Of a stretch of DNA of 21,802 bases, positions 3,077 to 21,312 are shown one piece after another. Source of the stretch: a virus. Each line of letters begins with the position of its first letter. Within the stretch, counting starts at the first letter, position 1. The translations under genes were made by a program, and so were the position numbers. The stretch covers positions 1 to 21,802 of the IMG/VR virus record IMGVR_UViG_3300030104_002756; one strand, 5' to 3'. The notes under the pieces are model-generated. The model saw only the letters and a list, made by a program, of their open reading frames with translations. It had not been told where the DNA came from and did no database searches.

Positions 3077-6000
3077 GTTCTGTCAAAGTACCAATATTCG
3101 GTGGTCTAGTTACTAATGCAGACTCCGAAGATATAAAAGTAGAGTTTACCCCGAACACTCATAATTTTGATACAAGTGAAGTCGGCACATTAAAACGACG
3201 TGACATATCTACTAAAGTAACCCAACAAACAGACAGAGGTTTTGATTCAATGTTCCTATTTAGGAATGCGAATCTAACAACAGGTTCAGGTATGGAGTGG
3301 TTAATCTATTGTTCACAACGTGGCATAATATTTAGAATGGATAGGTTTTATAATGATTTATTATTAGATAGTTATAATGATAATACATTACAGTATAATT
3401 CTAATAACAACCCACCCGGAAATGATTTTCTATATTTTATAGACAATCAACAGCAAACAGTACCTAGATACATTAGCTTTCAACCTTTCGGAGATTATGT
3501 TTTAGTAGGTATGGGACACAAATTTCCCCCCAAGATTATACAGGCTATAAACGCTAGAAAACAATTTACGGGTCAATATACTAAACCAACAGGTGTTTAT
3601 ATTGAAAACTTTCATAGGGGCTATCCAACAACATATACCTTAACAGGAACAGCAGACACATCATTTGGTTCATTAGCAACAGCTACTTACAGATATAATT
3701 TTGTTCCTATTTATGATGGTGTAAATGAAATTGCAGTAGATGACGTTAAGTCTGTTCAAGTCGGTGTAACTCAAAATAATGGAAAGGCTAATGTAGCTTT
3801 AAGTTTAGTTAATAGCATAAACGATATGCCTTGTAGTTTAACAGGTTATAGGATTTATAGAGCAACAGTAGTAGGAAGTGCAAAGCCTGCATTTCGTGCA
3901 ATTAAAACAATAAACTTATTAACGCCTGCCGGAGCAGAAGACCAACTTATTGAATCTACTTCTTGTTTTGCAGGTAGACATATTATACATAGCCCTGAGG
4001 GATTTCCTAGCGTACAGGAAATTAATGATATATGGAACACTAGGTTTCCTAATAATCAATATACTCTTACTCAAATGACAGACACAGTAGCCGATGATGA
4101 TGAATTTAAGTTTGACATTTACAAAATGGGCGAGCAGGGCGATACTTTTGGTAGTAATAATACAGCTTATACACAACAGACCTGCGATAGAACAAATGCT
4201 ACGGGTTATTTTGGTGGTAGTCTTTTACCCCACATTCAATTTATAAATCCCGGTTCAGGTGCAACGGGATGGGATTTAAACAAATGGGATAGTCTTCTTC
4301 AAGATTCAGAAAATGAATTTTTACACCTAAACATACCACACACTTATTATCCAAATAATGATGATGGTAATATAGACGAAGATGGATACGCAAATGGTTG
4401 GACAGCCTTAACAGGAGATACTATACTGTTAAAAATTATGTTACTAATAACAGGTGGTTCAGGTGGTAATGCTTTTCATAATCAGTTATTCTTAAATATA
4501 TTTGTGCAAAATGCTTATATGGGTAAAGATAAAATCTATTCCCATAGTAATATATTCTCAACTCCGGGCACAAACAATGGGGATACAGCTAGATTACAAT
4601 ACACAAATAAAAATAATACAGCTAAAGATATTAATGAAAACATATACTTGCACGGGAAAAAAGTGGTTATGTTTTCTCTTGACAGTAATGGAGACCCATC
4701 AAACGATATTGATGCTCTTACATTAGATTACAACGCATCAAATAATAGTTCATCTAATCTTGTAGTAAAAAACGACATAGACAATCTTTCTATTTCAGGT
4801 TCAGGTAATGTAGGTCAATCATATAATGACAGCAATAAACAAGCTACCATAACCTTTACAGACAAAGGAGAGGCAGATGGTGCTTTGCCAAGTGTACCTA
4901 TGGGTACAATCACTAGCCTTAGATGGCTGTATAGTGAAAATCACGGGGGTAGGATGTTTGTTGGTAATGTTGTACTTGAGCCAAATGGTATGAATGAATA
5001 TTACCCTGATATGATTAACTATTCTGAGGCAGGTATGCCTGCAACTATACCAATAGGTAATTTTATAAGAATACGAGACCCTGAGGGTGGTGGAGTACAA
5101 GGACTAAAGAGTATGGGCGACAGCCTTATTGTCTTTATGGAATATGGCATCTATCGTCTAAGAGTACCTAGTATAGACCCATCAACTTATAGCGTATTAG
5201 AAAGTAATGAGTTTATTGGGTGCATTGCTCCTAGGTCTGTAGTTAAGGTAGAAGATAAGGTTTATTTTTGTGGTAATAATAATATCTATCAAATTGATGC
5301 AAACTTTAATATTAAAGCAATCGGTAGTGCGATTCTAAATAAGTGGGTTTCAGAACCTGAAAAAGATAAGTCGATTGCAATGTACGACCCAATTAAAGAG
5401 GTTGTGTTGTTTAGGTTTGGTAGGGTAAAGCCTGACCTGTATGAATATAACATTAGAACAGGCGAATGGAATAAGATACAAACTCAAGGCAATGTTAGTT
5501 CTATGGCTGTTGGGGAAGAGGGTTACTTACACTTTGGAGATAATTCATTTTTAGATGTTACTAGAAGTGATGGTAATGATAACGATGAGGATAACCCTAG
5601 CGACCCTGAAGACCCTGACGGAGATGATGATGGCAACCCAAATGATGATGTGGATGATGAAGACCCTGACATTTATGCTGATTTAATTGATAACACCTTT
5701 GACTCTACTGCCACTATTGCAACAGAGCATTTTACAAACTCAGATTTTTTTGCAGGAATTACATTTAGAAACTTAACAAGTACAGCAGGTAGTAATATTT
5801 TAACAGGTTGGAATCCTGCAACAGGGATAGTAGCAAATCAAAAAATAGCAGGGTTTGGTTTGCCAAGTGGAACAACTGTTTCCTCTACGAATGCAAGTAA
5901 TAATAATATAGATGTAAGTGTAAATGCAACACAGGATAGTTATGTACCACCCGGGTTTGCCTCTTACGAAATACAGGGTCACGATGGGAATACCACCTTT

Positions 6001-7176
6001 TTTGGTCACAAAGAATTTAGTGCACAAAGTAACGCTTTCAAGTATTACTTGAGCACAGATGATTTTTCTAATTCAAATAGTAAACTAAGCCAAGGATATT
6101 TTTGTGATGAAGATTATATCTTTGTTAGAATCATAGCTGATAATATCAATATGAGTAGCCTGAGTTTTACGAGGTCATTAGTAAAAGCAGAGTTATTAAG
6201 GATTGATAAAGAGGCATTTAATTCTACACCACAAGAGTTAAAGTTTTCAAGAGTATTTAATGAGGGTACAAATACTCCTATCTTATTATACTTTTTTCAA
6301 AATCAATTAAATACAACTTTAGAGCAAGAGGATGGCGTTGCATACACATATCAAACAGGAGACTTTACAACTTGGGGAGCAGGTGTAGAACCTGCAAATC
6401 ATAATGAAAGTATTGTGGTTTTAAAGTGGAAAGCTAGTGGTCTTACAACGCAACCTATTCAATTACTTAACGAGGGTAGTTCTATAGTTTTATTTCTTCC
6501 TGATGTTTACAATTATAGAAAGTGGGTAGATATAAAACCTGATGCAAACTCAGACCAAGACGATGGGGAAGATTCGCAGAACTTTACACAACCAACTATA
6601 CAGGTTGTAAATACTAGCACAGCTACAGCAGACACAAATGGTTCAGGAGATTCTTATAACCATTTTCCATATTGGAGTAGGCTTGCACATCACGGAAATG
6701 AATTTAGCTTTAACAATGACAACACATACGGAACATTAGCAACTCATATGGCTATAAGTGGTCAATCTTATGTTGTTGCTAGGTATATGGGAGAGACTCA
6801 GCATCAGGTTGTAAAGTTTGGTAATAATATTACATACACCTTTGAGTTTTTTACTATTTACCAATTAGATACAAATAGCAATGGTGTATTCCAAAAATAC
6901 AGACCAATAAAAAACGTAGCAAATGAGGCTTACTATGGAGAGGTTGCTTACTCTTATATATATAGACTTATAGATATGAGTAGTAATGATGACACCTACG
7001 CAAGTAGCGTACAATCTCCATATCCTAGTAATATCCTTAATCACGATTTTAATGGCTTTGACCCAATGTTAGAGAACGAAGTAGAATTAACAAAATATTA
7101 TCCATCTAATCCCATAGAACCTGAACAGGGAATTGTACCTATGGCAGGTTGGTTAGAGAAAGGAGTAGAACAGTAA
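3073..7176 (+). CDS. Large tail nozzle/tubular-type protein with Asp-rich linker and C-terminal extension
   Basis: A 1367-residue virion protein. The N-terminal part starts SSVKVPIFGGLVTNADSEDI and includes residues ~677-765 (GLKSMGDSLIVFMEYGIYRL, later GCIAPRSVVKVEDKVYFCGN). These resemble the beta-propeller-like tail proteins that close the tail of podoviruses (T7 gp12, P22 gp10 type). A long stretch around residues 335-610 looks inserted. Residues 833-866 are an extreme acidic linker (16 Asp and 3 Glu in 34). After it come ~500 residues of beta-type, Asn/Ser/Thr-rich sequence I do not recognise. Family members I know are usually 700-900 residues, so the extension is extra. The start overlaps the upstream stop (ATGA), and the stop shares a base with the next ATG (7176). 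It probably acts at the distal end of the tail tube; the extension may contact fibres or the host surface. Confidence 0.6.
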   Translation: MSSVKVPIFGGLVTNADSEDIKVEFTPNTHNFDTSEVGTLKRRDISTKVTQQTDRGFDSMFLFRNANLTTGSGMEWLIYCSQRGIIFRMDRFYNDLLLDSYNDNTLQYNSNNNPPGNDFLYFIDNQQQTVPRYISFQPFGDYVLVGMGHKFPPKIIQAINARKQFTGQYTKPTGVYIENFHRGYPTTYTLTGTADTSFGSLATATYRYNFVPIYDGVNEIAVDDVKSVQVGVTQNNGKANVALSLVNSINDMPCSLTGYRIYRATVVGSAKPAFRAIKTINLLTPAGAEDQLIESTSCFAGRHIIHSPEGFPSVQEINDIWNTRFPNNQYTLTQMTDTVADDDEFKFDIYKMGEQGDTFGSNNTAYTQQTCDRTNATGYFGGSLLPHIQFINPGSGATGWDLNKWDSLLQDSENEFLHLNIPHTYYPNNDDGNIDEDGYANGWTALTGDTILLKIMLLITGGSGGNAFHNQLFLNIFVQNAYMGKDKIYSHSNIFSTPGTNNGDTARLQYTNKNNTAKDINENIYLHGKKVVMFSLDSNGDPSNDIDALTLDYNASNNSSSNLVVKNDIDNLSISGSGNVGQSYNDSNKQATITFTDKGEADGALPSVPMGTITSLRWLYSENHGGRMFVGNVVLEPNGMNEYYPDMINYSEAGMPATIPIGNFIRIRDPEGGGVQGLKSMGDSLIVFMEYGIYRLRVPSIDPSTYSVLESNEFIGCIAPRSVVKVEDKVYFCGNNNIYQIDANFNIKAIGSAILNKWVSEPEKDKSIAMYDPIKEVVLFRFGRVKPDLYEYNIRTGEWNKIQTQGNVSSMAVGEEGYLHFGDNSFLDVTRSDGNDNDEDNPSDPEDPDGDDDGNPNDDVDDEDPDIYADLIDNTFDSTATIATEHFTNSDFFAGITFRNLTSTAGSNILTGWNPATGIVANQKIAGFGLPSGTTVSSTNASNNNIDVSVNATQDSYVPPGFASYEIQGHDGNTTFFGHKEFSAQSNAFKYYLSTDDFSNSNSKLSQGYFCDEDYIFVRIIADNINMSSLSFTRSLVKAELLRIDKEAFNSTPQELKFSRVFNEGTNTPILLYFFQNQLNTTLEQEDGVAYTYQTGDFTTWGAGVEPANHNESIVVLKWKASGLTTQPIQLLNEGSSIVLFLPDVYNYRKWVDIKPDANSDQDDGEDSQNFTQPTIQVVNTSTATADTNGSGDSYNHFPYWSRLAHHGNEFSFNNDNTYGTLATHMAISGQSYVVARYMGETQHQVVKFGNNITYTFEFFTIYQLDTNSNGVFQKYRPIKNVANEAYYGEVAYSYIYRLIDMSSNDDTYASSVQSPYPSNILNHDFNGFDPMLENEVELTKYYPSNPIEPEQGIVPMAGWLEKGVEQ
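7159..7165 (+). promoter_or_regulatory. Shine-Dalgarno site fixing the start at 7176
   Basis: AAAGGAG lies 10 bases before ATG 7176, inside the end of the nozzle-like gene. An in-frame ATG at 7149 lies upstream of this site, so the site supports 7176 as the true start. Confidence 0.7.
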
Positions 7177-7839: not shown

Positions 7840-8481
7840 ATGACAGGTTTAGAAGTATTAGCAATAGCATCTGCTTTACAAGCAGGTGGTAAAATGGTAA
7901 AAGGGGGACTTGATTGGTTAGATGGTGGAAAGGCATCGCCCGAGGAAATGGCAAGGCTAAAGAAACTAAGAGAAAAATTGAACGCAGAGGCAGTAACGGA
8001 TGCAGATGTTGCACGTGCAGAGCAACTTGGGACAAGGCAAGCAACATCATCAATGAACCAAGCTAGAGATTTAGGTAGACAGCAATTAGCATTTCAAGGA
8101 TTAGGTAGTAGTGGACTATCTAGTCAGGTTGGATTAAAAGAGGCACAGCAGTTAGCCGATGCACAGACAACACAGGGTATTGGATTACGTGAAAGACAGA
8201 AACAAGCTAACGTAGCTTACAAAGAAAGAGCAGAGTCTAACTTAGATAATTATAGACAAGCATTAGCCGATAGAAGAAAAGCTGTAATGCAACAAGGCAG
8301 GTCAGACTTTTTCTCAGGTGGATTAGATTTACTTACCTTAGGTGCACAGCAAGGTATGATAGGTGGTGGTGGCTCAGTTCCAAAACCTCCGTCAGGAACA
8401 GGTGTGGACACATCTTTTGTAGACCCTAAAAATTTGCCTAAGGTTAGCCTATTAGAAGAAAACCCAACGGATATAACTTAG
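7840..8481 (+). CDS. Putative internal virion/ejection protein (gp14-like position)
   Basis: A 213-residue protein. The N-terminus (MTGLEVLAIASALQAGGKMV) is a Gly/Ala-rich hydrophobic helix. Residues ~33-160 are a long charged helix or coiled coil rich in Gln, Ala and Arg (EEMARLKKLREKLNAEAVTD, RERQKQANVAYKERAESNL). A Gly-rich segment with a second mildly hydrophobic stretch follows (FFSGGLDLLTLGAQQGMIGG, ~159-178), then a Pro-rich tail. This composition and position after the tail genes fit the first of three ejected internal proteins, as in T7 gp14 or P22 gp7. These proteins leave the virion with the DNA and help build a conduit across the envelope. GAGG at 7828-7831 is a good ribosome site. 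Homology cannot be confirmed by eye. Confidence 0.5.
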   Translation: MTGLEVLAIASALQAGGKMVKGGLDWLDGGKASPEEMARLKKLREKLNAEAVTDADVARAEQLGTRQATSSMNQARDLGRQQLAFQGLGSSGLSSQVGLKEAQQLADAQTTQGIGLRERQKQANVAYKERAESNLDNYRQALADRRKAVMQQGRSDFFSGGLDLLTLGAQQGMIGGGGSVPKPPSGTGVDTSFVDPKNLPKVSLLEENPTDIT

Positions 8482-8489
8482 AGGATATT

Positions 8490-9485
8490 ATGAGCAACCC
8501 AAGAGAATTATACAACCAATATCATAAAGCATTAATGGATGCAAGGATAGAGGCATCTAAACAGTTACAAAAGGATGCTATAAAAACATATGAAATAAAT
8601 CAACGTGCAAAAGCATATGCAGATAGAGATGCTACAGAACGAGAAAAGATAAAGGCTCAAAATAAAAGAGAGTATTATAAGATATTTGTAGATGCTATGG
8701 GTAAGATGTCTGAGTTTGATGGCAAGAATCCTTTACACCAACTTGAAAAAGAGGGACAGGGTAAAGATGCTGTTTATTATATAGGCGTTGGAGACGACAG
8801 GCAGGAAATAAGTGCTAAGGCATATATGCAATACAATACAGAAAACCTTAATACTATGAAACTAAGAAAGCTAGTAATGGGTGGTTATATGACAGGCATA
8901 AAACATATGAGTGAATATGACCCTGATGCTATTGCAAGAGCAGAGAATATGTTAAAAAGAAATCCTAATAATCCACCTAGTGGAGTTAAGACAGCACCTG
9001 ATGGTAGGGTAGTAATAAGAGATGGTAACGATGGTCTTGATAAGGACATTAAACAAAAAACAGATGAAGACTTAGCAGATGAAAAGATAGACCTAGAGGG
9101 AGACACAGGTGGATTCTTTCAGGGAATCAAGGGTGGTATAGAAAGAGATTTGCAAGACCCAACATCCCCTGCATATGCAATAGACAAGTTTTTTAGTAAT
9201 AAAGAAGAGCCGGGTGGAAGTGGCTCAGGAAGTGCAGTAGCCGATACTACTGATAGATTTGGAACTTTATACACAGACCCTGCCTCTAGTACAAGCACCT
9301 CAGGAGTTATGATGAATCAAGCAGGTAAACCTATGACAACGGAAGAGGGAATGAATATCATTTCAAATAAGGGTGGTATTAATGCAGGTGGTAATGTGAG
9401 TAATACAGCAGGAATGACCTTGGATTTAAAGTCAGGTCTTAGAGATAGGTACAGGGAAGAACTAGGTAAACGATTACAAAAATAA
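8490..9485 (+). CDS. Putative internal virion protein (second of three)
   Basis: A 331-residue hydrophilic protein. Residues 1-75 are a highly charged helix (MSNPRELYNQYHKALMDARI, then QLQKDAIKTYEINQRAKAYA), likely a coiled coil. Residues ~80-150 are mixed. From ~residue 170 the chain becomes Gly/Asp/Ser-rich and probably disordered (DGNDGLDKDIKQK, EEPGGSGSGSAVADTTD). A short charged helix closes it (LRDRYREELGKRLQK). It sits between a probable ejection protein and the giant protein, as does gp15 between gp14 and gp16 in T7-like phages; no sequence similarity to gp15 is visible. A strong ribosome site, AGAGGA at 8480-8485, lies 4 bases before the ATG and overlaps the previous stop. The stop abuts the ATG of the giant gene. 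Confidence 0.5.
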   Translation: MSNPRELYNQYHKALMDARIEASKQLQKDAIKTYEINQRAKAYADRDATEREKIKAQNKREYYKIFVDAMGKMSEFDGKNPLHQLEKEGQGKDAVYYIGVGDDRQEISAKAYMQYNTENLNTMKLRKLVMGGYMTGIKHMSEYDPDAIARAENMLKRNPNNPPSGVKTAPDGRVVIRDGNDGLDKDIKQKTDEDLADEKIDLEGDTGGFFQGIKGGIERDLQDPTSPAYAIDKFFSNKEEPGGSGSGSAVADTTDRFGTLYTDPASSTSTSGVMMNQAGKPMTTEEGMNIISNKGGINAGGNVSNTAGMTLDLKSGLRDRYREELGKRLQK

Positions 9486-12400
9486 ATGAGTAACCAATGG
9501 CTATACGATGGAGTAATGTCTTTTGAAAATCCTGACTATGAAACTCCTGATTCATTATTCTATAACAACCCTTATGGTGTTTCTGTCTACACCGATTGGA
9601 TGGCAGATTATGGTGCTGTTCGTAGTGGTGTTTCTCCTGATATAGAAAACGCAGGTGGGGAAATTATGCCTAGACCTGCATTCCCTACTTTAGATAGTGG
9701 TAAGGCTGTTGGTCAGGCTATTATAGACAATCAATGGGATATGTCAGGTGGAGACTATTTAACATTTGTTAAGAATTACGTCTATGGTAATAATAAACAA
9801 TTTGAAGACATTATCCCTGAAGAACAACAAAAGCTACGTAATTATGCAGGTCACTTAGAAACCTATCGTAATCACGCTAATCAAAAGAGCGAATTAGAAA
9901 CTGTTGTTGGAGACATAGAAAAAGGCATAGAGCTTGATTTTTATAAAGAGTCTCTATATGAAATGTATCCCGAACAAAGACAGCGAATAGATTCAGCTAT
10001 TGAATCAGGTGGTATAGGCGTAGATGATTTAATGTACGAACTAGACGAGAACGCACCTAAAGTTCCTGCTCAATTAAGCAACGATGTTTTTACTATGAAC
10101 AACCTAGGCATTATGAAAGATGCTTTTGATTCAGGTGTAGGTGGTATGGCATCTGACTTAGGTGGTATGTTTGAATGGTGGGGTATGGAAGACATTGGTG
10201 GCTCTATAAAAGATTGGGGCGATAGCGTTCAGAAAAACAATGCGATTGATATGCCCGAGTATGAGTTTGATTACAACCATATAGGTAGTAAAGAGTTTTG
10301 GATGGTAGATGCTCCTAGGGCTTTGCCATCTATGCTGTCTTTAATGATACCTTATTTTGGAGCAGGTCGTGCAGGTACAAGTATTTATAGGGCTTTACCA
10401 TATGCTAAAAGGTTTGCAAATATTGAAAAAGCATTCAGAGGTACTGAGAAAGGTAAAGTTGCTCTAAAATCAATGAGGCGAGGAGAGGCTATCTCTGCAA
10501 GTATTACAGGTGCTGTAGGTGGTCGTCAGGTAGAATCATTGATTGAGGCAGGTGGTGTATGGAATCATATGAAAGACCAAGGATATACAGACGAAGAGGC
10601 AGGCGTAGCAGGTTGGGAAGTATATAAGCAAAATCAAAAGTTAATAGCATCTGATTTTACTCAGCTATATGGTATCTATGGTAGATTACCATTTAGACTA
10701 GCTAATAACTTTGGTAATTGGTTCAGGGGTGCAGGTATTGGAATTGGTGTTTTAGCAGAGGGTTATGAGGAAGTAGCACAATCTTACTTTCAAGAATTAG
10801 GACAAGCTGTAGCAGATGATACAATAGAAGACCCTGAATTAATATTAGATATAAGAAAATTAAAACCTGAAGATAAAAAAGCATTTGCTATTGGTGTTTT
10901 AGGTGGTGGTGTATTTGAGGGTATGGGCAGGTTAGTTACTAACAACCTAGACCCTAACCAAATAGATGAATTATTAGATGACATATATGTTAAATATGAA
11001 GACAGGAAAGAGGCACAAGAAAATGCTCAGGAAGATTTAGACACCGAGTTTAGTTCTTTCTTAGCTGAGGCTACAGGTTTACGTGCTTTAAAAGACAAGC
11101 TACGTATACGTTTTAGCAACAGAACATTACGTGATGTATATACAGCAGAAGAATTGATAAGCATTGGTTATAATCCTGCCGATTATGCTAGTGCAAGAAT
11201 AGACGAAACAAGCCCAAGATATGACACAGAACAGGGTGGGGAACAGTTCTTATTAGAACCTGAGGCGTTTAATTACATTGATAATGATGGTGTTGTTAAT
11301 GTAATCTTTGGTAATAATGCTAGTAATGAGGCAGTATTAGAAGACGTTGTCGAGGCAGTTTATAGAAGACTAGAACAGCTTGACCCTGTCCTGTATAATA
11401 ATATAAAGGCTTGGGAACAAAGAAACCAAGAAAAAAGCAGTAATTTTCAGGGCAGGGAACTTTTCAGTAAATCCTTTGTCTACAATTATTTAGGTATAGA
11501 ATCCAAGATACCTGAGAACAACACAGGCTCTATCCCACTACCACCTGAAATATCAGAGGCGTTTGATAACTACTTTGTAAATGAAGACGGGGATAACATT
11601 ATTTCGACTTTAATGGGGGTGCAAGAAAGACGTACTGACCGAGAAGAACAAAGCGAAATATTGGCAATTCCGGAACAAACTAGCTATGAAGAAGGCTCAG
11701 AAGTTCCAATGGTTATGAAGTCAAAGCCAACTATTGTAATAAAGGAAAGACCCGGAGCACAGTTTTCAGGACAAACAATAGAGGTTGGAGATTATGTACA
11801 ATGGACAAACCAAGGTGCAGACCAATTTGAAATACCAAGAAAAGTTTTAGGAATAGAAAGAGACCCTACGAGTGGTCGTATGTATACTTTTGTTGAGGGT
11901 ACAACTACAGGTATTCCATTAGATGAATTAGACATTAGAAGTGCACCTGCATCTAATAACGATGTTTTTGTTACTATAGATAATAACCAAGGCGAATTGT
12001 TTAAAATGCCTACAGCAAACCCCGACGTACAGGAACAAGAGCCTGTTATTAAGCGTGAGGTAAAGATAAAAGGGGTAGAGGGTTTATTTGGAGAGCAATT
12101 AACAATAGATGATATTGCAAAACAAGTTAATGATATAGATAAGTCTAATAGTAAAAATATTAAAAGTATAAGGGAAATACCTAATAATCTTAAAGATGTT
12201 AAGAAAGAAGACTTTAATAGGGAAAGAATCCTTAATATTTTAAGTCAGCACCCTGAGGTAGCTGAAAGCCTAACCCCTGTTGTTTCTATGAAAGTCTTAA
12301 AAGAAATAACCAAAGACTTAAACATACCTGTTCAAGGTCGTAAAAAAGTAGACCAATTAATGGCTATACAGAACTTCTTTGAAGAGGCTAAAGATGATGC

Positions 12401-15400
12401 AACCCAAGGTTCTTATATAGGTACTTGGCTACCTAGTGAAACCATACAAAGTATAGACATACCTAACGTCAGGTCAAACCTTACCAATGTTATCTTAGAT
12501 GCTTATAAAAGATTACGCCCTGATGGTACGTTTGTTGTTAATCTGCCTGAGGGTACTACTCCAAAAGCTAGAGAAAAGATATTTACAATGCTTACAGGTA
12601 CAAACAGAGATATGTTTAAGATGCCTAAGCGTGGTATGGTTGCTATCAACAAACAATCTATCAAAAAGAGTTATTCAGGTTTATTTGCTCAAGCTAATTA
12701 CGACAAGAAAAACTCAACTCCTACAAAGCTAGTATTCAAAGGTAAGGGTCAAGTACCACCTAGCCTTGTAAACTTTATGTCTATTGACCCTACGAAAACG
12801 GGTGTAGGTGGTTTAGGTAAAGGACTCAGAAGACAATGGAATCCTAATACAATGTCTTGGGGCGTTGATAATAGAACATTTACTCAAAAGGAATATCAAG
12901 ACTATATAGACAGGGCTGTTGAGACAGGAGTCACAGAAGTCACAGAAGAACTTCAAAGTGTATTTGAAACCTTAGGTGCTATTAAAGATACAGATGGTTT
13001 AAAGTTTATAGACATTTCCTTAGGTTGGTATACGACAGCAGTAGATAAGTCTATACAAGTTACAGGTAGTACGGAAATCCCGTCTTTGTTGGCTAAGGGT
13101 CAAGAGGGTATAAACAATAGAAATGTTTTTAGAACTCTATTAGGTCTAACCTCTCCTAACCAAGCTGTTGATAATAATTTTAATTACGCTGTAGAAATAT
13201 ATAAGCACATAGAGCAAAAACAAATGCGACCTGAGTTTAAGGAAGCTAGTGCAGGATTTAAGTTTTTTAAGAAAACAGATGGTATAGATTTAAAAATGCC
13301 AAATAGTGTGGCTTTAAACATCGAATTATTTTATGATTTAAAGGATTTACACTTTGATGGTAGGATGGATAAGACAATAGAGTGGTTAAAAACAAAGCAC
13401 GACCCTAACGATATAAACTATGTTTTAAACAGTATTGGTAGAAAGATTAAAAAGGTTGATACTGTAGATGGCTTTTTAACAAAAGAGGGAAAAGTTTATG
13501 GAGCAGAGGTTTTTAATTTTAAGGTTGGAGCATTTGTTGCCAACCTATTAGGTGTTTCAGATATATCAACTATTGACCTTTGGATGTCTAGGCAAATTAA
13601 TAGATGGTTAGGCGAACCTTTTATTGCAACAAATAAAGATGTCGGTAGGATATTTGGCGACAACTTCTTTGCTCCAAATAGCACAGTAACTAAAATGCGT
13701 GATGAGGCAGGAGCAAGACAAAACTTTTTATTGTTTAGAGATGTAGTAAAGGGCATAGCTAACGACAAAAGAATAACAAAACACTTTGGTAGAAAAGTGA
13801 CACCAATGGAAATACAGGCTTTGTTATGGTATATGGAAAAAGCATTATACTTAAATCAAAATGCAAGGTCTCAAAAAGAACTAGGAGAAAGTGATTATGG
13901 CTCGTATTCCGAAATCAGACAAGAAATCAGACGTAACCCCAATGTCAATCTTACAACTATTGAAGGGATTGAACCTGAACGAAACCAAGGAGCGTATATT
14001 CGAGGAAGTGGCAAAAGAGCATTTGAAAGTACGTATGCCGAAGATAGTCAAGGAGCAAGCCTTGGACGAATAGACCTTAATCAAGAAGAGGACAGAGATG
14101 GAGTTAGACCTTTTGTTGGCTTTAGACAGAAACAAAGTAAAGAGTCTAAGGCTAAACAAAAAGAGTATGACAAGCATTATGCTCCTAAGAATTGGCGTGA
14201 TTACTTAGTTACATTTAGTACACAAATAGGAAAACTACATCCTAAGCTACCCGGATTGTTCAGGCGTTTTCAGTTCTATAGTTTAAAATACTATAACGAT
14301 TCAATGGCAGAGGTAGAGCCTTTAGTTTTAGGATTAAAAGATTTACATAAGAGAGCCACAAAGAAAAGAGCATCAGAAGAATTAAAAAGCGATTATTTAG
14401 ATATTGACCTAGGTCTTAAAAATCAGCAATATAAAGAGATAGAACCTTTATTGAAAAAGTATGGTTTATATGAGGCTGTACTTCGTGCACGTAAACAACT
14501 AGATAAGATAGCTAAAGATAAAGAGGCTGTTGGATTTGACTCAGGTTTCTTAGAAGACTATTTCCCTAGGGTCGTTACTGACCATTTAATGTTAAAAGAT
14601 TATCTATTAGAATACGTTGCTGACCAAGGAGACAAGGATGCGATAGCTGAAGAGATTGAGGCACGTAGTGCAGAGATAGGTAGAAAGTTAGAACTAGAAG
14701 AACAAGTCGAAGTTATGCAACGAGTTATACTAGGTAGAGCACAGGGTGCACAAGTAGGGACTCCTGATAATTTAAAAGAAAGAAAGATTAAAACTCTTAA
14801 CGATAGTGCTAATCAATTCTATGCCCCTACTTACGATGCCCTTGGTATTTATATGGCTCAGGTTACTGAGGCTATAGCAGGCAAGCGATTTTTAGGACAA
14901 AGTAAATACAGCGTAAGAAAGCAAGGCTCAAACTTTATTGTTGCACATAAACACTCAGGTAAAGATGCTACAGGAATGAAGTTTAAAAACAGGCGTGATG
15001 CTTTTAATAAAATGAAAGAATTAGTAAGTGTACATCTTGATGCTCAGGGCATTCCATTAACAGGGATGGAATACACTATTGATTCTTTTATACTAAAGGC
15101 AATGGAAGAATACGGGCTAGATGTTAAACAAGAAGAAAGATTAAGGAAATTATTACAAGCATATTTCAATAGACAAAAAGGTAATCCTATGACTATGGCT
15201 CTAAAGACAACAGGGTACATAACTTCTATGGGAAGTATCTTTAGTGCAATTACTCAGATTGCTGATATTGGTTTAGCTGTATGGCGTTCAGGAGACCGAG
15301 GTTTAACTAGAATACCAACAGGTGCATATAGAACAGTAAGGGCATTAACCGAATCCCTTGTATACTCTTTTGGACAACGCAGGTTTAACGAATCTTTTAT

Positions 15401-16415
15401 AGGACGTGAAGAGTATGGGGTAGATGCTATAGCTGAAGAATTGAAACCTGATGGTGGAATGTTATTAAACTTACTACAGAAAGTATTTAAAGTAGTTCAG
15501 CTAGAAAGATTAGACCAAGTAGGTAAAGATACAACTGTAAATGCAACATTAGCTAAGTTTAGAGCATTAGCAAAGAATCCTAATAAGCCTGAATATAATG
15601 AGTTTATATATAGACTACAGCAAAGTTTTAGTGCAGAAGAAATAAGTCAAATATTAAAAGATTTACAAGATGGTACACGAAGTGAATTAGTGCTCCTATT
15701 GTCGTATACGGAGTTACTCAAGGTTCAACCAATAGGTAAATCTGAAGTTCCTGTTGGTTATTTAGAGATGCCAAATGGTAGAGTCTTCTATCAGTTAAAA
15801 ACATTCTTCTTAAAAAGGTTTGATGTATACAGAGATGAAGTAAAATTTATAAATGCTCAATATGCCGAGGCAGAGAGAGTAGGCGATAAGGCAAAAATGC
15901 GTGGTTTAAAATCTCAATACTATGCACGTATTGTTGGTTTGATTGCATTGTTTGTATTAGCTGAAATGGGAACAGATGAAATTAAAGACCAATTAGCAGG
16001 TAGAGAAACTGACTTATCAGACAAAGCAGTACAGAACTTATTAAAGATGGTCGGGTTAAGTAAGTTTACTTTTTGGACAGCTAAGAGAGAGGGTCTTGAT
16101 AGTGCTCTATTGAAAATGATTATGCCACCTATCACAGGGGTTGTTAATGATATAGCTATTAAAGACGTATATACCTTAGGCGAAAAATATAACAAAGGTG
16201 GAATGCCTGAAGTTCGCAAGCACATTAGAGAATCAGGTTTGCGAGTATACAATCATATACCTGTAGCAGGTAAACACTTGTATTGGTGGAACGAAGATTT
16301 ATTAGGTAAACGACCTGCATATCTTGGTGTAGGTAGAGGCAATGTAATTGCAGAAAAGTATAACAAGAAGAAACGCAAAAGGCGTAAGCGTGGTCGTGGA
16401 GAAAGGCAACGATAA
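9486..16415 (+). CDS. Giant 2309-residue internal virion / large polyvalent-type protein
   Basis: By far the largest gene. Visible segments in order: Gly/Trp-rich and hydrophobic amphipathic stretches at ~216-246 and ~268-300; an EGYEEVAQ motif (425-432) among helices of membrane-active type; an SH3-like beta segment (~762-818, IEVGDYVQW); a SAP-like helix pair (~935-965, with GRKK); a methyltransferase-like fragment (LRPDGTFVVNLP, 1010-1021) lacking an obvious SAM-binding glycine loop; and a block at ~1155-1376 ending STIDLWMSR (T1362, D1364, W1366), then QALLWYMEK (1444-1452), resembling DUF7178-like modules of phage polyvalent proteins. Further on are DYFPR (1691-1695), a hydrophobic helix at 1905-1936, and a basic tail (2290-2309). 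It sits where T7 has gp16 and lacks a clear ribosome site, so it probably depends on coupling to the previous stop. Likely packaged and ejected with the DNA. Domain names are pattern calls, unverified. Confidence 0.6.
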   Translation: MSNQWLYDGVMSFENPDYETPDSLFYNNPYGVSVYTDWMADYGAVRSGVSPDIENAGGEIMPRPAFPTLDSGKAVGQAIIDNQWDMSGGDYLTFVKNYVYGNNKQFEDIIPEEQQKLRNYAGHLETYRNHANQKSELETVVGDIEKGIELDFYKESLYEMYPEQRQRIDSAIESGGIGVDDLMYELDENAPKVPAQLSNDVFTMNNLGIMKDAFDSGVGGMASDLGGMFEWWGMEDIGGSIKDWGDSVQKNNAIDMPEYEFDYNHIGSKEFWMVDAPRALPSMLSLMIPYFGAGRAGTSIYRALPYAKRFANIEKAFRGTEKGKVALKSMRRGEAISASITGAVGGRQVESLIEAGGVWNHMKDQGYTDEEAGVAGWEVYKQNQKLIASDFTQLYGIYGRLPFRLANNFGNWFRGAGIGIGVLAEGYEEVAQSYFQELGQAVADDTIEDPELILDIRKLKPEDKKAFAIGVLGGGVFEGMGRLVTNNLDPNQIDELLDDIYVKYEDRKEAQENAQEDLDTEFSSFLAEATGLRALKDKLRIRFSNRTLRDVYTAEELISIGYNPADYASARIDETSPRYDTEQGGEQFLLEPEAFNYIDNDGVVNVIFGNNASNEAVLEDVVEAVYRRLEQLDPVLYNNIKAWEQRNQEKSSNFQGRELFSKSFVYNYLGIESKIPENNTGSIPLPPEISEAFDNYFVNEDGDNIISTLMGVQERRTDREEQSEILAIPEQTSYEEGSEVPMVMKSKPTIVIKERPGAQFSGQTIEVGDYVQWTNQGADQFEIPRKVLGIERDPTSGRMYTFVEGTTTGIPLDELDIRSAPASNNDVFVTIDNNQGELFKMPTANPDVQEQEPVIKREVKIKGVEGLFGEQLTIDDIAKQVNDIDKSNSKNIKSIREIPNNLKDVKKEDFNRERILNILSQHPEVAESLTPVVSMKVLKEITKDLNIPVQGRKKVDQLMAIQNFFEEAKDDATQGSYIGTWLPSETIQSIDIPNVRSNLTNVILDAYKRLRPDGTFVVNLPEGTTPKAREKIFTMLTGTNRDMFKMPKRGMVAINKQSIKKSYSGLFAQANYDKKNSTPTKLVFKGKGQVPPSLVNFMSIDPTKTGVGGLGKGLRRQWNPNTMSWGVDNRTFTQKEYQDYIDRAVETGVTEVTEELQSVFETLGAIKDTDGLKFIDISLGWYTTAVDKSIQVTGSTEIPSLLAKGQEGINNRNVFRTLLGLTSPNQAVDNNFNYAVEIYKHIEQKQMRPEFKEASAGFKFFKKTDGIDLKMPNSVALNIELFYDLKDLHFDGRMDKTIEWLKTKHDPNDINYVLNSIGRKIKKVDTVDGFLTKEGKVYGAEVFNFKVGAFVANLLGVSDISTIDLWMSRQINRWLGEPFIATNKDVGRIFGDNFFAPNSTVTKMRDEAGARQNFLLFRDVVKGIANDKRITKHFGRKVTPMEIQALLWYMEKALYLNQNARSQKELGESDYGSYSEIRQEIRRNPNVNLTTIEGIEPERNQGAYIRGSGKRAFESTYAEDSQGASLGRIDLNQEEDRDGVRPFVGFRQKQSKESKAKQKEYDKHYAPKNWRDYLVTFSTQIGKLHPKLPGLFRRFQFYSLKYYNDSMAEVEPLVLGLKDLHKRATKKRASEELKSDYLDIDLGLKNQQYKEIEPLLKKYGLYEAVLRARKQLDKIAKDKEAVGFDSGFLEDYFPRVVTDHLMLKDYLLEYVADQGDKDAIAEEIEARSAEIGRKLELEEQVEVMQRVILGRAQGAQVGTPDNLKERKIKTLNDSANQFYAPTYDALGIYMAQVTEAIAGKRFLGQSKYSVRKQGSNFIVAHKHSGKDATGMKFKNRRDAFNKMKELVSVHLDAQGIPLTGMEYTIDSFILKAMEEYGLDVKQEERLRKLLQAYFNRQKGNPMTMALKTTGYITSMGSIFSAITQIADIGLAVWRSGDRGLTRIPTGAYRTVRALTESLVYSFGQRRFNESFIGREEYGVDAIAEELKPDGGMLLNLLQKVFKVVQLERLDQVGKDTTVNATLAKFRALAKNPNKPEYNEFIYRLQQSFSAEEISQILKDLQDGTRSELVLLLSYTELLKVQPIGKSEVPVGYLEMPNGRVFYQLKTFFLKRFDVYRDEVKFINAQYAEAERVGDKAKMRGLKSQYYARIVGLIALFVLAEMGTDEIKDQLAGRETDLSDKAVQNLLKMVGLSKFTFWTAKREGLDSALLKMIMPPITGVVNDIAIKDVYTLGEKYNKGGMPEVRKHIRESGLRVYNHIPVAGKHLYWWNEDLLGKRPAYLGVGRGNVIAEKYNKKKRKRRKRGRGERQR
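13897..14073 (+). CDS. Possible nested out-of-frame ORF inside the giant gene
   Basis: A 58-residue ORF in the +1 frame, starting MARIPKSDKKSDVTP and ending MPKIVKEQALDE. AGGAG at 13883-13887 lies 9 bases before the ATG, better than the site of the giant gene itself. The product would be a compact, charged, helical protein with no membrane segment. It overlies a part of the giant protein that looks like a linker between domains (after QALLWYMEK, before the next helical region). Against it: its third codon positions are about half G/C, much higher than in other genes here, because they coincide with first positions of the main frame. Listed as a hypothesis only. Confidence 0.2.
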   Translation: MARIPKSDKKSDVTPMSILQLLKGLNLNETKERIFEEVAKEHLKVRMPKIVKEQALDE

Positions 16416-16987: not shown

Positions 16988-18202
16988 ATGGCAACGTGGA
17001 AACGAATCATTACTGATGCCGATGATAGTAACTATAAAAATAGTAACGTAAAATCGTCTGACTTACCTGTTGCTACTGCATCAGCAGTAGGTGGAATCAA
17101 GGTAGGTTCAAACCTTTCTATCGTAGCAGATGGAACGCTTTCAGCATCGAGTGGCAGTAATACAACAAACAGCAGTATGGCGTTTAATACATCAACAGGT
17201 GTTTTAACGCTTACTGATTCAGCAAGTGGTAGTGTAACAGTAGACCTAGATGGTAGGTTTCCTACTGATAAGATTACCAACCTCTCAATCTCAGGTACGA
17301 CAGGTGCTCTTACGATAGCATCGAGTACGGGTACTAATGCAGTTATACCTATTCAATCAGGCAACAACTCAGGTCTTATGGATAAGACTAGAGATACTGC
17401 AATCACAGCAAACTCAGCAAAGGTTAGTAACGTATCTACTAATCTTAGTGTATCAACAACGAACGCTAAAGTAACTGTTAATAGTTCTGATGGTACAAAC
17501 GCTGAAATTTCAACTGCGAATGGTTCAAACGCAGGGGTGTTGTCATCAGCATTGTTTAACGCTATCAATACAAATACAGCTAAAACAAGTAACGTAACAA
17601 CAAACCTAAGTGTATCTACATCAGCAGGCAAAGTAACAGTAGCAAGTTCAGATGGTACTAATGCTGAGATTGGAACAGCAACAGCATCTAGTGCAGGTGT
17701 TTTGTCATCAACTTTGTTTAGCAACATACAAACAAACAACGCTAAGGTTTCAGCATCAGGTATTGTATCCTGTACTGAGAGTAATGTTATAAGCATTTTA
17801 GGGGCTTTAGATTCAAGTGATACACTTCACATTGGAGATACAGGGGCTGATACTACAGTATCAATTAGAGGTAATCTAACAGTTAGTGGTACAACAACTA
17901 CAGTAGACAGCACCAACCTAAAGATAGGCGATAATCTTATTACCTTAAACAAGGATGTAACAGGAACACCAACTGAGAATGCAGGGTTTGAAGTAGAGAG
18001 AGGCACAAGTGCTAATCCTAACTTTATTTGGTCAGAATCAAGCGACCACTTTATGATAGATTACAATTCTTGGAAAGCCAATGTAGCTACTATGCAAACT
18101 GCTAATTCATCTGCTCCAACAAGTTCAGATAATGAAGGTGGTGCAACAGGTGCTTTTTGGCATAGAACAGGAACTAACGAAGTATACGTTAGAACAGCGT
18201 AA
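16988..18202 (+). CDS. Tail fibre protein A (MATWKRIIT anchor, 54-residue repeats)
   Basis: A 404-residue fibre. Residues 1-21 start MATWKRIITDADD and match the start of the fibre at 18672, so this is probably the virion-anchoring peptide. Residues ~29-55 (TASAVGGIKVGSNLSIVADG) are a familiar fibre element. Residues 90-251 are three tandem 54-residue units, the first degenerate. Residues ~280-345 contain RGNLTVSGTTTTVDSTNLKI, a beta-type motif widespread in marine phage fibres, followed by a segment about an 'LNKDVTGT' turn. The last ~50 residues (ending TGTNEVYVRTA) may be the receptor-proximal tip. The ribosome site AAAAGGAG (16971-16978) is the best in the region, suggesting high expression. 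The fibre is expected to be a trimer that binds the host surface; that is established for such proteins in general and inferred here. Confidence 0.75.
   Translation: MATWKRIITDADDSNYKNSNVKSSDLPVATASAVGGIKVGSNLSIVADGTLSASSGSNTTNSSMAFNTSTGVLTLTDSASGSVTVDLDGRFPTDKITNLSISGTTGALTIASSTGTNAVIPIQSGNNSGLMDKTRDTAITANSAKVSNVSTNLSVSTTNAKVTVNSSDGTNAEISTANGSNAGVLSSALFNAINTNTAKTSNVTTNLSVSTSAGKVTVASSDGTNAEIGTATASSAGVLSSTLFSNIQTNNAKVSASGIVSCTESNVISILGALDSSDTLHIGDTGADTTVSIRGNLTVSGTTTTVDSTNLKIGDNLITLNKDVTGTPTENAGFEVERGTSANPNFIWSESSDHFMIDYNSWKANVATMQTANSSAPTSSDNEGGATGAFWHRTGTNEVYVRTA
17255..17740 (+). repeat. Three tandem 162-base (54-residue) repeats in fibre A
   Basis: Units are 17255-17416 (degenerate), 17417-17578 and 17579-17740. 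All align without gaps in protein: TNLS[I/V]S, SS[T/D]GTNA and a following hydrophobic turn recur at the same offsets. Units 2 and 3 share 39 of 54 residues, and 19 of those 39 use different synonymous codons, so the repeat is much clearer in protein than in DNA. Confidence 0.85.
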
Positions 18203-18449: not shown

Positions 18450-18672
18450 ATCATCAAAATTACAAATTGTTAAATTAAATCCGATGGAGTTACTATTAAT
18501 AAAACAAGCAGTAGAAGATGTAACTGTCAAGGGCAAGGATGCTCATATTGTGGCAGGGACAATAACAAAAATAACTAAGGCGATAGACAGGGTAGATTTA
18601 AACTTAAAGAATGGATTACCACCCGGAACGTATGAAGATAATAATGGTCAGGTAATGGCAAAGGTTGATTAA
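18442..18672 (+). CDS. Small helical protein, paralogue 2
   Basis: A 76-residue protein starting MAKSSKLQIVKLNPMELLLI. The helical core (LNPMELLLIKQAVEDVTVKG, then GTITKITKAID) aligns without gaps to the core of the preceding gene: LN at the same offset from KG, then G and two Lys at matching places. Unlike paralogue 1 it has a short N-terminus and an extra polar C-terminal tail (NGLPPGTYEDNNGQVMAKVD). Ribosome site AGGGA at 18429-18433, 8 bases before the ATG. The stop shares its last base with the ATG of fibre B (TAATG). Function unknown; fibre-assembly chaperone or minor virion protein are both possible. Confidence 0.7.
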   Translation: MAKSSKLQIVKLNPMELLLIKQAVEDVTVKGKDAHIVAGTITKITKAIDRVDLNLKNGLPPGTYEDNNGQVMAKVD

Positions 18673-20036
18673 TGGCGACTTGGAAAAGAATAATTACTAC
18701 TGCTGATGATGCAAGTTATAAGAATAGCAACGTAACCACTTTTAGTGGTAATTATAATGACCTTAGTAACAAACCCACTATACCTACCAATAACAATCAA
18801 CTTACTAATGGTGCTAGTTATTTAACTACGTCAGGTAAAGCAAACGATTCTCATAAGTTAGATGGTTTGGCTCTTATGTCAAACACTATCAACAATGGTG
18901 CAAACCGAATAATGAGAACGGATAGTAATGGGTACGCTCACTTTGGTTGGATAAACACAATAAGTGGTGCATTAACAACTCAAACCATCAATAGGATTTT
19001 TTGTTCTACCGACCAATATGTTCGCTATATGACTCCTGCTAATTTTGCAGACCAAATAGAGGGGCATATTGATTATGACGAACTAGACAACCTACCAACT
19101 ATTCCAACTAATACTAATCAGCTAACAAATGGTGCAGGTTTTACAACGAATGCAGGAGATATTACTAATGTTAGTACAGGTACGGGCTTAACAGGTGGTG
19201 GTAGTTCAGGTAGCGTAACTGTCTCTGTTGCTAGTGGTGGCATAGATACAACACAGCTTGCAGACGACTCAGTTACTAAAGCTAAATTAGATGCTAACTC
19301 TGTTGTTGCAGGTTCTTTGTCGGTAAGCAGTAGCCCTACCTCAGGTCAGTATTTAGTATTTGCACCAACGGGAGATGGTTTACATTGGCAGACTCTTAGT
19401 ATTAACAACACAAATTGGAGTGGCACAGACCTTGCTGTTGCAAATGGGGGGACAGGTTCATCTAGTGCTAGTGGTGCTAGAACTAATTTAGGACTAGGTT
19501 CGTTAGCAACTGCATCAAGTATTAGTAATAGTAATTGGTCAGGTACAGATTTGGCTGTTGCTAATGGTGGTACAGGTGCATCATCACAAAGTGATGCAAG
19601 AGGTAAAAACAATCTTGATGTAAACCAATCAGGACACCTTGGCTACAACACAAGAATAAAAATTTTACCTAGTGATTTTATGCAAGACTCAGATAACTCA
19701 ACTGCAAACTACGCATTGACATCAGCTAACAATGGTGGTACAGGTAGAATTATGAGTAGTCTTTTAGAGATAATTGGTAATTGGAATATACCAAAAGGAT
19801 TCAAAGCAACATCAGTTACCCTATATGGAACATCAAGAAGTTTTGCAGTTTATGAATGTAACATAGCTAATACTTCTGCTACATCAAAAGGAACAGGTAC
19901 AATGTCTACCTCGGGTGGCACATCAAACATTACAGATGTCACAGCATCAGACACTAATTATCTTTCAATTAGAATTGACCTAGCATCTACCAATGATAGA
20001 TTTTATGGTGGATATATAAGTATAACGAGAGCATAA
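18672..20036 (+). CDS. Tail fibre protein B (MATWKRIIT anchor, GGTG repeats)
   Basis: A 454-residue fibre. Residues 1-21 repeat the N-terminal peptide of fibre A with three substitutions, implying the same docking site. Then come elements typical of tailed-phage fibres: YNDLSNKPTIPTNNNQLTNG and the similar DELDNLPTIPTNTNQLTNG ~95 residues later; DITNVSTGTGLTGGGSSGSV; and a duplicated NWSGTDLAVANGGTG segment followed by ARTNLGLGSLATASS, as in the Phage_fiber_2 repeat family. The last ~120 residues, after NNLDVNQSGHLGYNTR, form a beta-rich domain ending GGYISITRA and are the likely receptor-binding tip. Ribosome site AAAGG at 18660-18664. It could be an alternative to fibre A or part of the same branched apparatus; order alone does not decide. 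Confidence 0.8.
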   Translation: MATWKRIITTADDASYKNSNVTTFSGNYNDLSNKPTIPTNNNQLTNGASYLTTSGKANDSHKLDGLALMSNTINNGANRIMRTDSNGYAHFGWINTISGALTTQTINRIFCSTDQYVRYMTPANFADQIEGHIDYDELDNLPTIPTNTNQLTNGAGFTTNAGDITNVSTGTGLTGGGSSGSVTVSVASGGIDTTQLADDSVTKAKLDANSVVAGSLSVSSSPTSGQYLVFAPTGDGLHWQTLSINNTNWSGTDLAVANGGTGSSSASGARTNLGLGSLATASSISNSNWSGTDLAVANGGTGASSQSDARGKNNLDVNQSGHLGYNTRIKILPSDFMQDSDNSTANYALTSANNGGTGRIMSSLLEIIGNWNIPKGFKATSVTLYGTSRSFAVYECNIANTSATSKGTGTMSTSGGTSNITDVTASDTNYLSIRIDLASTNDRFYGGYISITRA

Positions 20037-20037
20037 A

Positions 20038-21312
20038 ATGGCAAATGATTTAAGAGCAAGTAAAAGTGGTAGCAAGTTAGAAGATGCCCCTCAGTTAAAA
20101 AAGATTACTGACATACACGGGACAGTAGCAACTGAAGACATCGTAATGAGGTCTGTTATTGAAAGATTTAAAACTCTTGAGGCAGAGCAGAGAACTATAC
20201 ACGAAGAGATAGACGAACTACAAAAGTATATAATAAGTGCTTTTGGTAGAGACTCTAGCCTAGCCTCAAGCCAAGGAGCAAAAGGAGATAAAGGAGACCA
20301 AGGCATACAAGGCATCCAAGGAGCAACAGGTGCTCAAGGAGCGAAAGGAGATAAGGGGGACACAGGTGCACAAGGAGCAACAGGAGCGAGAGGTGCGACG
20401 GGAAGTCAAGGAACAGCAGGGAGCAATGGAGCGAAAGGAGACAAAGGAGATGCGTTTGTATATAGCGACTTTACTTCTACGCAACTTGCAGGTCTTAAAG
20501 GTGCTACGGGTGCTCAAGGAATACAAGGTGTTAAAGGAGACACGGGAGCAAGAGGAGCGACAGGTTCAGCAGGAGCAAATGGTTCTAATGGGGCTAAAGG
20601 TGATAAAGGTGATGCTTTTGTTTATTCTGATTTTACAAGTTCTCAGTTAGCAGGATTAAAAGGTGCGACAGGGGCACAAGGTATTCAAGGTGTTAAAGGA
20701 GATACAGGAGATAGAGGAGCAACGGGAGCACAGGGAATACAGGGTGTCAAAGGAGACACAGGCGATAAAGGCGATAAAGGGGATACAGGTAGTGCAGGTT
20801 CTAATGGTAGTAATGGTTCTAATGGTAGCAATGGAGTAAGCGTAACTCATTCCTTTAGTGGATATACTTTAAGTGTAACGTCAGCTAGTGGAACATCTAG
20901 TGCAAATTTAAGAGGTGCTACAGGAGCAACGGGGTCAGCAGGTGCTAAGGGAGATAAAGGAGATACAGGAGCGACAGGAGCACGAGGAATACAAGGTATC
21001 CAAGGTGCAACAGGGTCAGCAGGAGCAAAAGGGGACAAGGGAGACCCCGGAACTGACGGAACTAATGGAAGTAATGGTGCTAAGGGAGACAAGGGAGACA
21101 CAGGGGCTCAGGGTGCAACAGGAGCAAAAGGAGATAAAGGGGATACAGGAGCACAAGGTGCTCAGGGTATCCAAGGTGTTGCAGGAGCAGATGGTGCAGA
21201 TGGTTCTGATGCAAGCGTAAGTGGAGTCACAGGTAACTACAGATATATGCAGGATAGTAGAACCACTAAAACAATGAAAATACAAAACGGATTAATAAAG
21301 CAAATATCATAA
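20038..21312 (+). CDS. Collagen-like fibre protein with repeated non-collagen interruptions
   Basis: A 424-residue protein. Residues 1-79 are a helical N-terminus with a probable coiled coil (IERFKTLEAEQRTIHEEIDE), suited to trimerisation. Residues 80 to ~393 are Gly-X-Y repeats (GAKGDKGDQGIQGIQGATG type), a collagen-like triple-helix shaft. They are broken three times: twice by DAFVYSDFTS[T/S]QLAGLKG and once by a 28-residue beta-type segment (~265-293, VSVTHSFSGYTLSVTSASG). The last 31 residues (VSGVTGNYRYMQDSRTTKTM and on) are a small cap. Phage collagen-like fibres are known; bacteria make them without proline hydroxylation, and the KGD/KGE-rich sequence fits salt-bridge stabilisation. 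There is no MATWKRIIT anchor, so it probably docks differently from fibres A and B. One base separates it from the fibre B stop. Confidence 0.8.
   Translation: MANDLRASKSGSKLEDAPQLKKITDIHGTVATEDIVMRSVIERFKTLEAEQRTIHEEIDELQKYIISAFGRDSSLASSQGAKGDKGDQGIQGIQGATGAQGAKGDKGDTGAQGATGARGATGSQGTAGSNGAKGDKGDAFVYSDFTSTQLAGLKGATGAQGIQGVKGDTGARGATGSAGANGSNGAKGDKGDAFVYSDFTSSQLAGLKGATGAQGIQGVKGDTGDRGATGAQGIQGVKGDTGDKGDKGDTGSAGSNGSNGSNGSNGVSVTHSFSGYTLSVTSASGTSSANLRGATGATGSAGAKGDKGDTGATGARGIQGIQGATGSAGAKGDKGDPGTDGTNGSNGAKGDKGDTGAQGATGAKGDKGDTGAQGAQGIQGVAGADGADGSDASVSGVTGNYRYMQDSRTTKTMKIQNGLIKQIS
20422..20724 (+). repeat. Two 54-residue-spaced collagen/interruption repeats with silent divergence
   Basis: Copies at 20422-20562 and 20584-20724 encode 47-residue segments differing at only two residues (T/S and A/D). 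Hand alignment shows 26 of the 47 codons differ silently. The copies begin 162 bases apart. Confidence 0.85.
20797..20832 (+). repeat. (Gly-Ser-Asn)x4 minirepeat with alternating serine codons
   Basis: Four 9-base units encode Gly-Ser-Asn. Gly and Asn codons are constant (GGT, AAT), while the Ser codons run TCT, AGT, TCT, AGC, alternating between the two serine codon blocks. Confidence 0.85.

Follow-up and report, generated by a model that had tools for sequence, protein, structure and literature searches.

A giant, predicted ejected protein of a short-tailed phage contains a candidate DNA-glycosylase-like domain

A 2309-residue protein encoded next to the virion genes of a short-tailed phage contains a conserved helical domain that, judging by its motifs and structure models, probably has the helix-hairpin-helix (HhH)-GPD fold and that turns up again in the giants of numerous other phages. 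DNA glycosylases excise bases that are damaged or modified. We read the protein as an ejected polyvalent protein, comparable to the vRNAP of phage N4, with a DNA-glycosylase-like domain, and put the chances of that overall reading at about even; that the domain is an active glycosylase falls a little short of this. More tentative still is the wider proposal that hundreds of aquatic phages deliver an unnamed HhH-GPD DNA glycosylase inside a giant ejected protein, to act on DNA in the earliest part of infection (either repair of the phage genome on arrival or an attack on host DNA). What is new here is the predicted glycosylase-like domain, polyvalent or ejected giants being of a kind already known. 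Giant phage proteins with no assigned function are common, and they rank among the longest uncharacterised proteins of short-tailed phages; an invariant lysine/aspartate pair in a conserved domain offers a concrete, testable activity for them and suggests base excision as one of the events of phage entry.

The window is the whole stretch of DNA that was analysed, 21,802 nucleotides, from a source record that is a 21.8-kb virus fragment. It contains the following gene:

9486-16415, + strand: giant gene, predicted ejected polyvalent protein of 2309 aa (ORF, relatives and codon-position change)

The giant ORF is a real gene. Its 2309 codons include zero internal stops, and it starts directly after the end of the gene for a 331-aa protein. 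An earlier note on this DNA had described one uninterrupted 6.9 kb gene, and the giant likewise stays a single gene, with no splitting seen, in three IMG/VR relatives (L001, L005 and L006; best-segment identity 63-74%). The L001 homologue has 2305 aa and is 64% identical over its full length, and those of L005 and L006 have 2184 and 817 aa, both contigs stopping inside the gene. Identity between L001 and the window is at least 80% at residues 1-120 and 1741-1860 and falls locally to 32-45% near residues 121-240 and 961-1080. Change is concentrated at third codon positions in all regions of the gene, the pattern expected for a selected coding sequence. The full protein has no sequence relatives in INPHARED, Pfam, PHROGs or the PDB, and a two-sequence alignment used as a profile against genome contigs gave zero matches. 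Three scans with family sub-alignments returned the same relatives only, except that residues 1330-1510 added one locus (L015) from beyond the family. These residues overlap the domain on which the glycosylase reading is based:

12885-13856, + strand: conserved helical domain of giant phage proteins, HhH-GPD-like, residues 1134-1457 (homology, models, Foldseek)
13500-13607, + strand: helix-hairpin-helix and the next helix, residues 1339-1374, with K1346 (13521-13523) and D1364 (13575-13577) 18 apart
13815-13841, + strand: QALLWYMEK, residues 1444-1452, the domain's last helix (sequence, alignments)

The T-x-D-x-W block (residues 1362-1366) and QALLWYMEK, to which the earlier note had drawn attention but given no name, are parts of this one domain. 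A seven-sequence domain alignment retrieved 168 viral loci. For 80 of these the sequence was fetched, and the ORFs complete in it all have 1640-4813 codons (47/47, some contigs being near duplicates). The locus added by residues 1330-1510 belongs to a T7-like phage whose gp16 slot is taken by a giant of 2810 aa, and the match covers window residues 1178-1376 and 1410-1455. This giant (L015:7217-15649) carries LPD22 and a HEFSH zincin-like motif; no HExxH zincin motif is present in the window giant. Bbp10 of BPP-1, a relative, has been described as CLCA_X-type (PMC3650047). Limnohabitans phage DC33 (39 kb) and two Manatee Spring phages have giants of the L015 type, and those of DC33 (3125 aa), ctQRb9 and ctEw122 share the domain with the window protein (E 3e-4 to 1e-6). 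By BLAST, the BPP-1, Caulobacter, Vibrio and Pseudomonas giants have no match to the domain. The Bbp10, DC33, ctQRb9 and ctEw122 giants resemble the window giant in lying between a second internal virion or lysin gene and the tail fibre, whereas the rest of the protein in BPP-1-type and DC33-type giants is unrelated to it by sequence; N- and C-terminal profiles gave no match to BPP-1-type giants. Phage DC33 (L016, PQ492659.1) is tailed, with portal and tail genes, yet is filed under Inoviridae, which looks like a taxonomy error.

Pfam searches of 14 diverse domain-bearing giants found ART-PolyVal in seven, LPD38 in three, LPD22 in two, and LPD37, LPD23 and SLT singly, which makes the domain a marker of giant polyvalent-type proteins. 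The top Foldseek matches in BFVD include phage proteins named "ART-PolyVal-like" and "Large polyvalent protein associated" (best E 5.7e-8, probability 1.00), so the polyvalent link drawn in the earlier note stands. Phage polyvalent proteins are typically encoded near virion genes and predicted to be injected (Iyer et al. 2017, PMC5512222). The window giant is like them in being very large, of predicted modular build and encoded among virion genes, and in sharing residues 1134-1457 with giants bearing ART-PolyVal, LPD or SLT domains; it is unlike them in that no named polyvalent domain was detected in it, the whole protein having been searched for those catalogued in Pfam (ART, MPTase, LPD). 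No LPD model in Pfam matches the conserved domain, and an LPD38 suggested by eye in the C-terminal part was not supported by hhalign (probability 0.3%). Outside residues 1134-1457, the window giant has neither a sequence match to other giants nor a named Pfam domain. The same predicted fold is found in BFVD in two small stand-alone proteins, A0A291LIQ2 of Streptomyces phage Tefunt (321 aa) and G8EYE9 of Synechococcus phage S-CBP42 (198 aa), which are the simplest material for activity tests of the domain.

Across 36-37 members, K1346, G1348, F1350, N1353, T1362, D1364, W1366 and R1369 are invariant, as are Q1444, A1445, W1448, Y1449, E1451 and K1452; the WY and QALLWY parts were included in the search patterns, so that their invariance is partly selected, and the K..D part was absent from those patterns. 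In 45 distinct motifs the lysine is kept in 45/45, with a K-to-D spacing of 18 or 19. HhH-GPD glycosylases have an HhH followed by a catalytic aspartate, with a lysine in the bifunctional members. In E. coli Nth (MG1655 record) these residues are K120 and D138, a spacing of 18, the same as for K1346 and D1364, and on this ground an HhH-GPD DNA glycosylase fold was predicted prior to any fold search. The window domain is like Nth, MutY and archaeal Ogg in having an HhH with a lysine, an aspartate 18-19 residues later and an arginine at +5 from the aspartate; unlike them, it is larger, has inserts and has no iron-sulphur cluster motif. Some members of the domain family, L074 among them, carry fewer inserts. 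The Pfam HhH-GPD model (PF00730) finds no match in the window and none among the domain members scanned singly.

AlphaFold2 models were made for residues 730-1530 and 1130-1466. Residues 1134-1457 have pLDDT mostly >90, and the domain model has a mean pLDDT of 83.5 and a pTM of 0.83. In both, K1346 opens the second helix of the helix-hairpin-helix and D1364 stands just before the following helix. Foldseek searches of 350,542 PDB chains placed S. solfataricus Ogg (SsOgg) at rank 1 for the long model (E 0.12, probability 0.69), and for the domain model M. jannaschii Ogg (MjOgg) at rank 2 (E 0.41, probability 0.77, TM 0.47 by target) and the human MutY homologue at rank 23. The Ogg structures have the highest probability among full-domain matches, with rmsd >11 Å and E-values that are not significant singly. 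A halovirus endonuclease III stands at rank 47 in BFVD. The structure search proposed in the earlier note, which weighed conduit folds against effector-type domains, therefore returned a possible effector-type domain, glycosylase-like in shape. When the domain profile was compared with a nine-sequence Nth/MutY profile in hhalign, residues 1344-1374 fell on Nth 118-148 so that both the lysine and the aspartate coincide (score 21.2, equalled or exceeded by 2/500 column shuffles; hhalign's own probability ~1%), and a profile of other giants, with the window excluded, scored 24.5 in the same K/D register. Ahead of the HhH, the succession of N-terminal helices does not align convincingly with Nth, and PDB sequences searched with a structure profile of the domain yielded chance-level matches only.

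These values leave some room for a different enzyme or fold, such as the DUF7178 family, the glycosylase resemblance being chance. Terpene synthases and other helical proteins have Foldseek E-values close to those of the glycosylases, with none of the PDB matches significant, and several domain members match DUF7178 weakly (E 0.0023 in L074, 0.0036 in L031, others up to 0.13, all below the Pfam cut-off). The window sequence itself has no DUF7178 match, and the DUF7178 and HhH-GPD assignments need not exclude each other. Against chance resemblance speak the K/D register in hhalign and the fact that the motif-based prediction preceded the appearance of archaeal Ogg at Foldseek ranks 1 and 2 in two models, and we hold a different fold or enzyme unlikely. 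Similarly unlikely, in our estimate, is an HhH-GPD-like shape that has no enzyme activity and serves as a DNA-binding or guiding module that keeps hold of the genome while it is packaged or ejected. It is common for HhH motifs to bind DNA non-catalytically, the enzyme-level fold evidence is weak, and the same giant has other DNA-binding-like parts (a SAP-like segment and a basic tail), but K, D, N, T, R and QxxxWYxEK are strictly conserved in very divergent giants, which looks more like an active site than a scaffold.

The giant occupies the slot of the largest ejection protein and is encoded next to virion genes. The window order is DUF6321, two genes, an SU10-type adaptor, a 1367-aa nozzle homologue, 154-aa, 77-aa, 213-aa and 331-aa proteins, the giant and tail-fibre-type genes, one of them collagen-like:

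1895-3076, + strand: head-tail adaptor, SU10 type (Pfam SU10_adaptor, E 2.1e-12; L030 homologue, E 1e-17)
3073-7176, + strand: nozzle-type tail protein, 1367 aa (homologue of the 784-aa protein at the same position in L030, E 2e-28)
7840-8481, + strand: 213-aa protein, small ejection-protein slot (position, helical composition, L001 homologue)
8490-9485, + strand: 331-aa protein, middle ejection-protein slot (position; L001 homologue at 42%)

This order complies with that known around the gene of the largest ejection protein (nozzle, small, middle, large, fibres), and here too the earlier note, which had placed the giant in an ejection-protein position, is supported. The 213-aa and 331-aa proteins have no family match in Pfam or PHROGs. 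The nearest outside relative (L030) shows this gene order too, with an adaptor, a nozzle homologue, 501-, 229- and 397-aa proteins and then a 2001-aa giant with LPD38; in BLAST its domain is matched by the window protein at E 8e-31 and by the L005 protein at E 2e-33. Slot-equivalent giants of 1902-3209 aa are found in BPP-1, Caulobacter, Vibrio, Pseudomonas, Acinetobacter, Cobetia and Limnohabitans phages, and in one locus (L080) a PHROG "DNA ejection protein" is encoded two genes ahead of the giant. The window nozzle homologue exceeds its L030 counterpart by ~580 aa.

The relative's other half was recovered as well: L001 and L004 are one 40.3 kb IMG/VR contig whose ends both lie within the nozzle gene (904 + 450 aa, compared with 1367 aa in the window), so the genome is probably complete and circularly permuted. 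It encodes a P22/SU10-like portal, an SU10-like major capsid protein, terminase and a GH108 endolysin, together with an exonuclease, DnaD-like replication genes and a PDDEXK nuclease. The capsid relatives in INPHARED (Mx8/Mx9, BUCT555, ppBjS10J-1 and one Manatee Spring phage) carry ordinary-sized proteins in the post-nozzle slots, which suggests that this lineage has replaced or expanded such a protein to give the giant. The relative that encodes the L001 giant (G001) also has a stand-alone, zincin-like antirestriction gene of ArdC type with ArdcN and MPTase-PolyVal domains (L004:12735-13787); domains of these types are often fused within polyvalent proteins.

Two further explanations bear on this position. 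The giant could serve as a conduit and nothing more, in the manner of T7 gp16 or P22 gp16/gp20, the shared domain then being structural. Its position and high helical content would suit such a role, and a few domain-bearing giants carry a transglycosylase (SLT) or adjoin peptidoglycan hydrolases. On the other hand, the giant has no similarity to known ejection proteins in searches of the whole sequence, nor to solved ones in the fold search of residues 730-1530, no peptidoglycan hydrolase was found in it, and half of the giants sharing the domain bear ART and other effector domains; we consider this explanation quite improbable. More improbable still is that the giant is an intracellular protein made late and not a virion protein, given that its gene lies within the head-tail gene run, directly between the two small ejection-slot genes and the fibre genes, as in many other phages, and that bbp10 of BPP-1 is annotated within a structural cassette.

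The reading of the giant as an ejected polyvalent protein finds a model in N4, in which gp51 and gp52 make a tunnel through which the giant vRNAP is released (PMC12633501). The N4 vRNAP has ~3500 residues and is expelled with these two smaller, tunnel-forming ejection proteins, and its beads-on-a-string build has been proposed to permit passage via a ~35 Å channel (PMC12633501); the DEV vRNAP is likewise an ejection protein (PMC10925440). The window resembles these Schitoviridae systems in combining a giant, predicted multi-domain protein with two smaller, putative ejection proteins. It differs in that no RNA polymerase domain or sequence similarity to vRNAP was found in the giant, and in that its effector-type domain looks glycosylase-like.

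From this comparison we infer a possible course of packaging, entry and catalysis. The giant, a polyvalent protein by kind, would be the largest ejection protein in a short-tailed phage of marine type and would be packaged along with the 213-aa and 331-aa proteins. These two would form a tunnel across the envelope during infection, and the giant would be threaded through it as a string of loosely joined domains, like the N4 vRNAP. The earlier note had proposed that one protein both forms the conduit and delivers early counter-defence domains; because in N4 gp51 and gp52 build the tunnel and the vRNAP passes through it, this is probably not the likeliest division of labour, and it is possible that the giant is also part of the conduit. 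Inside the cell, its basic tail and SH3- and SAP-like modules might help to hold DNA while the domain at residues 1134-1457 would act on it as a glycosylase or glycosylase/lyase of HhH-GPD type, with D1364 as the putative catalytic aspartate and K1346 as the putative nucleophilic lysine. The base acted on would be a damaged or modified one, in the DNA present at entry, incoming or host. Repair of lesions in the incoming genome is a possible but doubtful use, as is some other use or none at all, and attack on, or marking of, host DNA leans towards the unlikely.

Beyond the conserved domain, the giant has the following segments:

10758-10781, + strand: EGYEEVAQ, residues 425-432, in the conserved N-terminal part (sequence, relatives)
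11790-11939, + strand: SH3/Tudor-like small beta barrel, residues 769-818 (model, Foldseek)
12219-12395, + strand: SAP/HEH-like helices, residues 912-970, possible DNA binding, weak (model; weak Pfam SAP)
12471-12596, + strand: "methyltransferase-like" fragment, residues 996-1037, whose fold is not that of a methyltransferase
14556-14570, + strand: DYFPR, residues 1691-1695 (kept in relatives)
15198-15293, + strand: moderately hydrophobic helix, residues 1905-1936 (Kyte-Doolittle)
16368-16412, + strand: basic tail, residues 2295-2309 (sequence)

The separate predicted folded modules in the giant are residues 769-818, 912-970 and 1134-1457. The features picked out in the earlier note fared unevenly. 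EGYEEVAQ, T-x-D-x-W, QALLWYMEK, DYFPR and the basic tail are all present, the last 30 residues having a net charge of +12. Its SH3-like segment corresponds to the barrel at residues 769-818, which has pLDDT ~90 and matches Tudor/chromo-type SH3 barrels with Foldseek probability up to 0.96-1.00 (E 0.15-0.4). For the SAP-like segment, helices are predicted at the right place (pLDDT 85-94) but the Pfam SAP match is below the cut-off (E 0.094, 12.8 bits vs. 23.9). The methyltransferase-like fragment (~990-1040) was not borne out by fold or family: the model has one strand between two helices, with pLDDT ~55-79, and no Rossmann sheet with a SAM loop. The helix at residues 1905-1936 is moderately hydrophobic, with a Kyte-Doolittle maximum (1.33, 19 residues) below the usual transmembrane level and slightly below that of residues 2141-2163 (1.41). 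The EGYEEVAQ region is conserved and the C-terminal 850 residues are conserved within the family; neither these nor the DYFPR region have a family match.

We found no glycosylase in polyvalent or ejected phage proteins in a search of the open-access literature, and the text of Iyer et al. (2017, PMC5512222) mentions no DNA glycosylase domain. Brig1 is a bacterial DNA glycosylase that defends against modified phage DNA (PMC11078745). Compared by role alone, it parallels the activity proposed for the window domain as a DNA glycosylase in phage-host conflict but differs in being a bacterial defence enzyme, the candidate enzyme of the window being the phage's own. If the reading holds, DNA glycosylases would join the list of phage-injected proteins, on the opposite side to Brig1. 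A cultured carrier of the domain exists in Limnohabitans phage DC33, so that virion content and activity are directly testable.

Several minor features lie outside the giant gene. Positions 1-258 encode the C-terminal end of the DUF6321 protein, cut by the window edge; this C-terminal module also terminates PHROG families of differing lengths. Downstream of the giant, the fibre-type proteins encoded at 16988-18202 and 18672-20036 share the starting sequence MATWKRIITxADDxxYKNSNV, as if an attachment N-terminus had been duplicated. The collagen-like tail-fibre gene at 20038-21312 encodes 424 aa with GXY repeats, and the fibre gene at the same place in L001 (13847-14746) encodes 299 aa, so repeat length may vary between the two.
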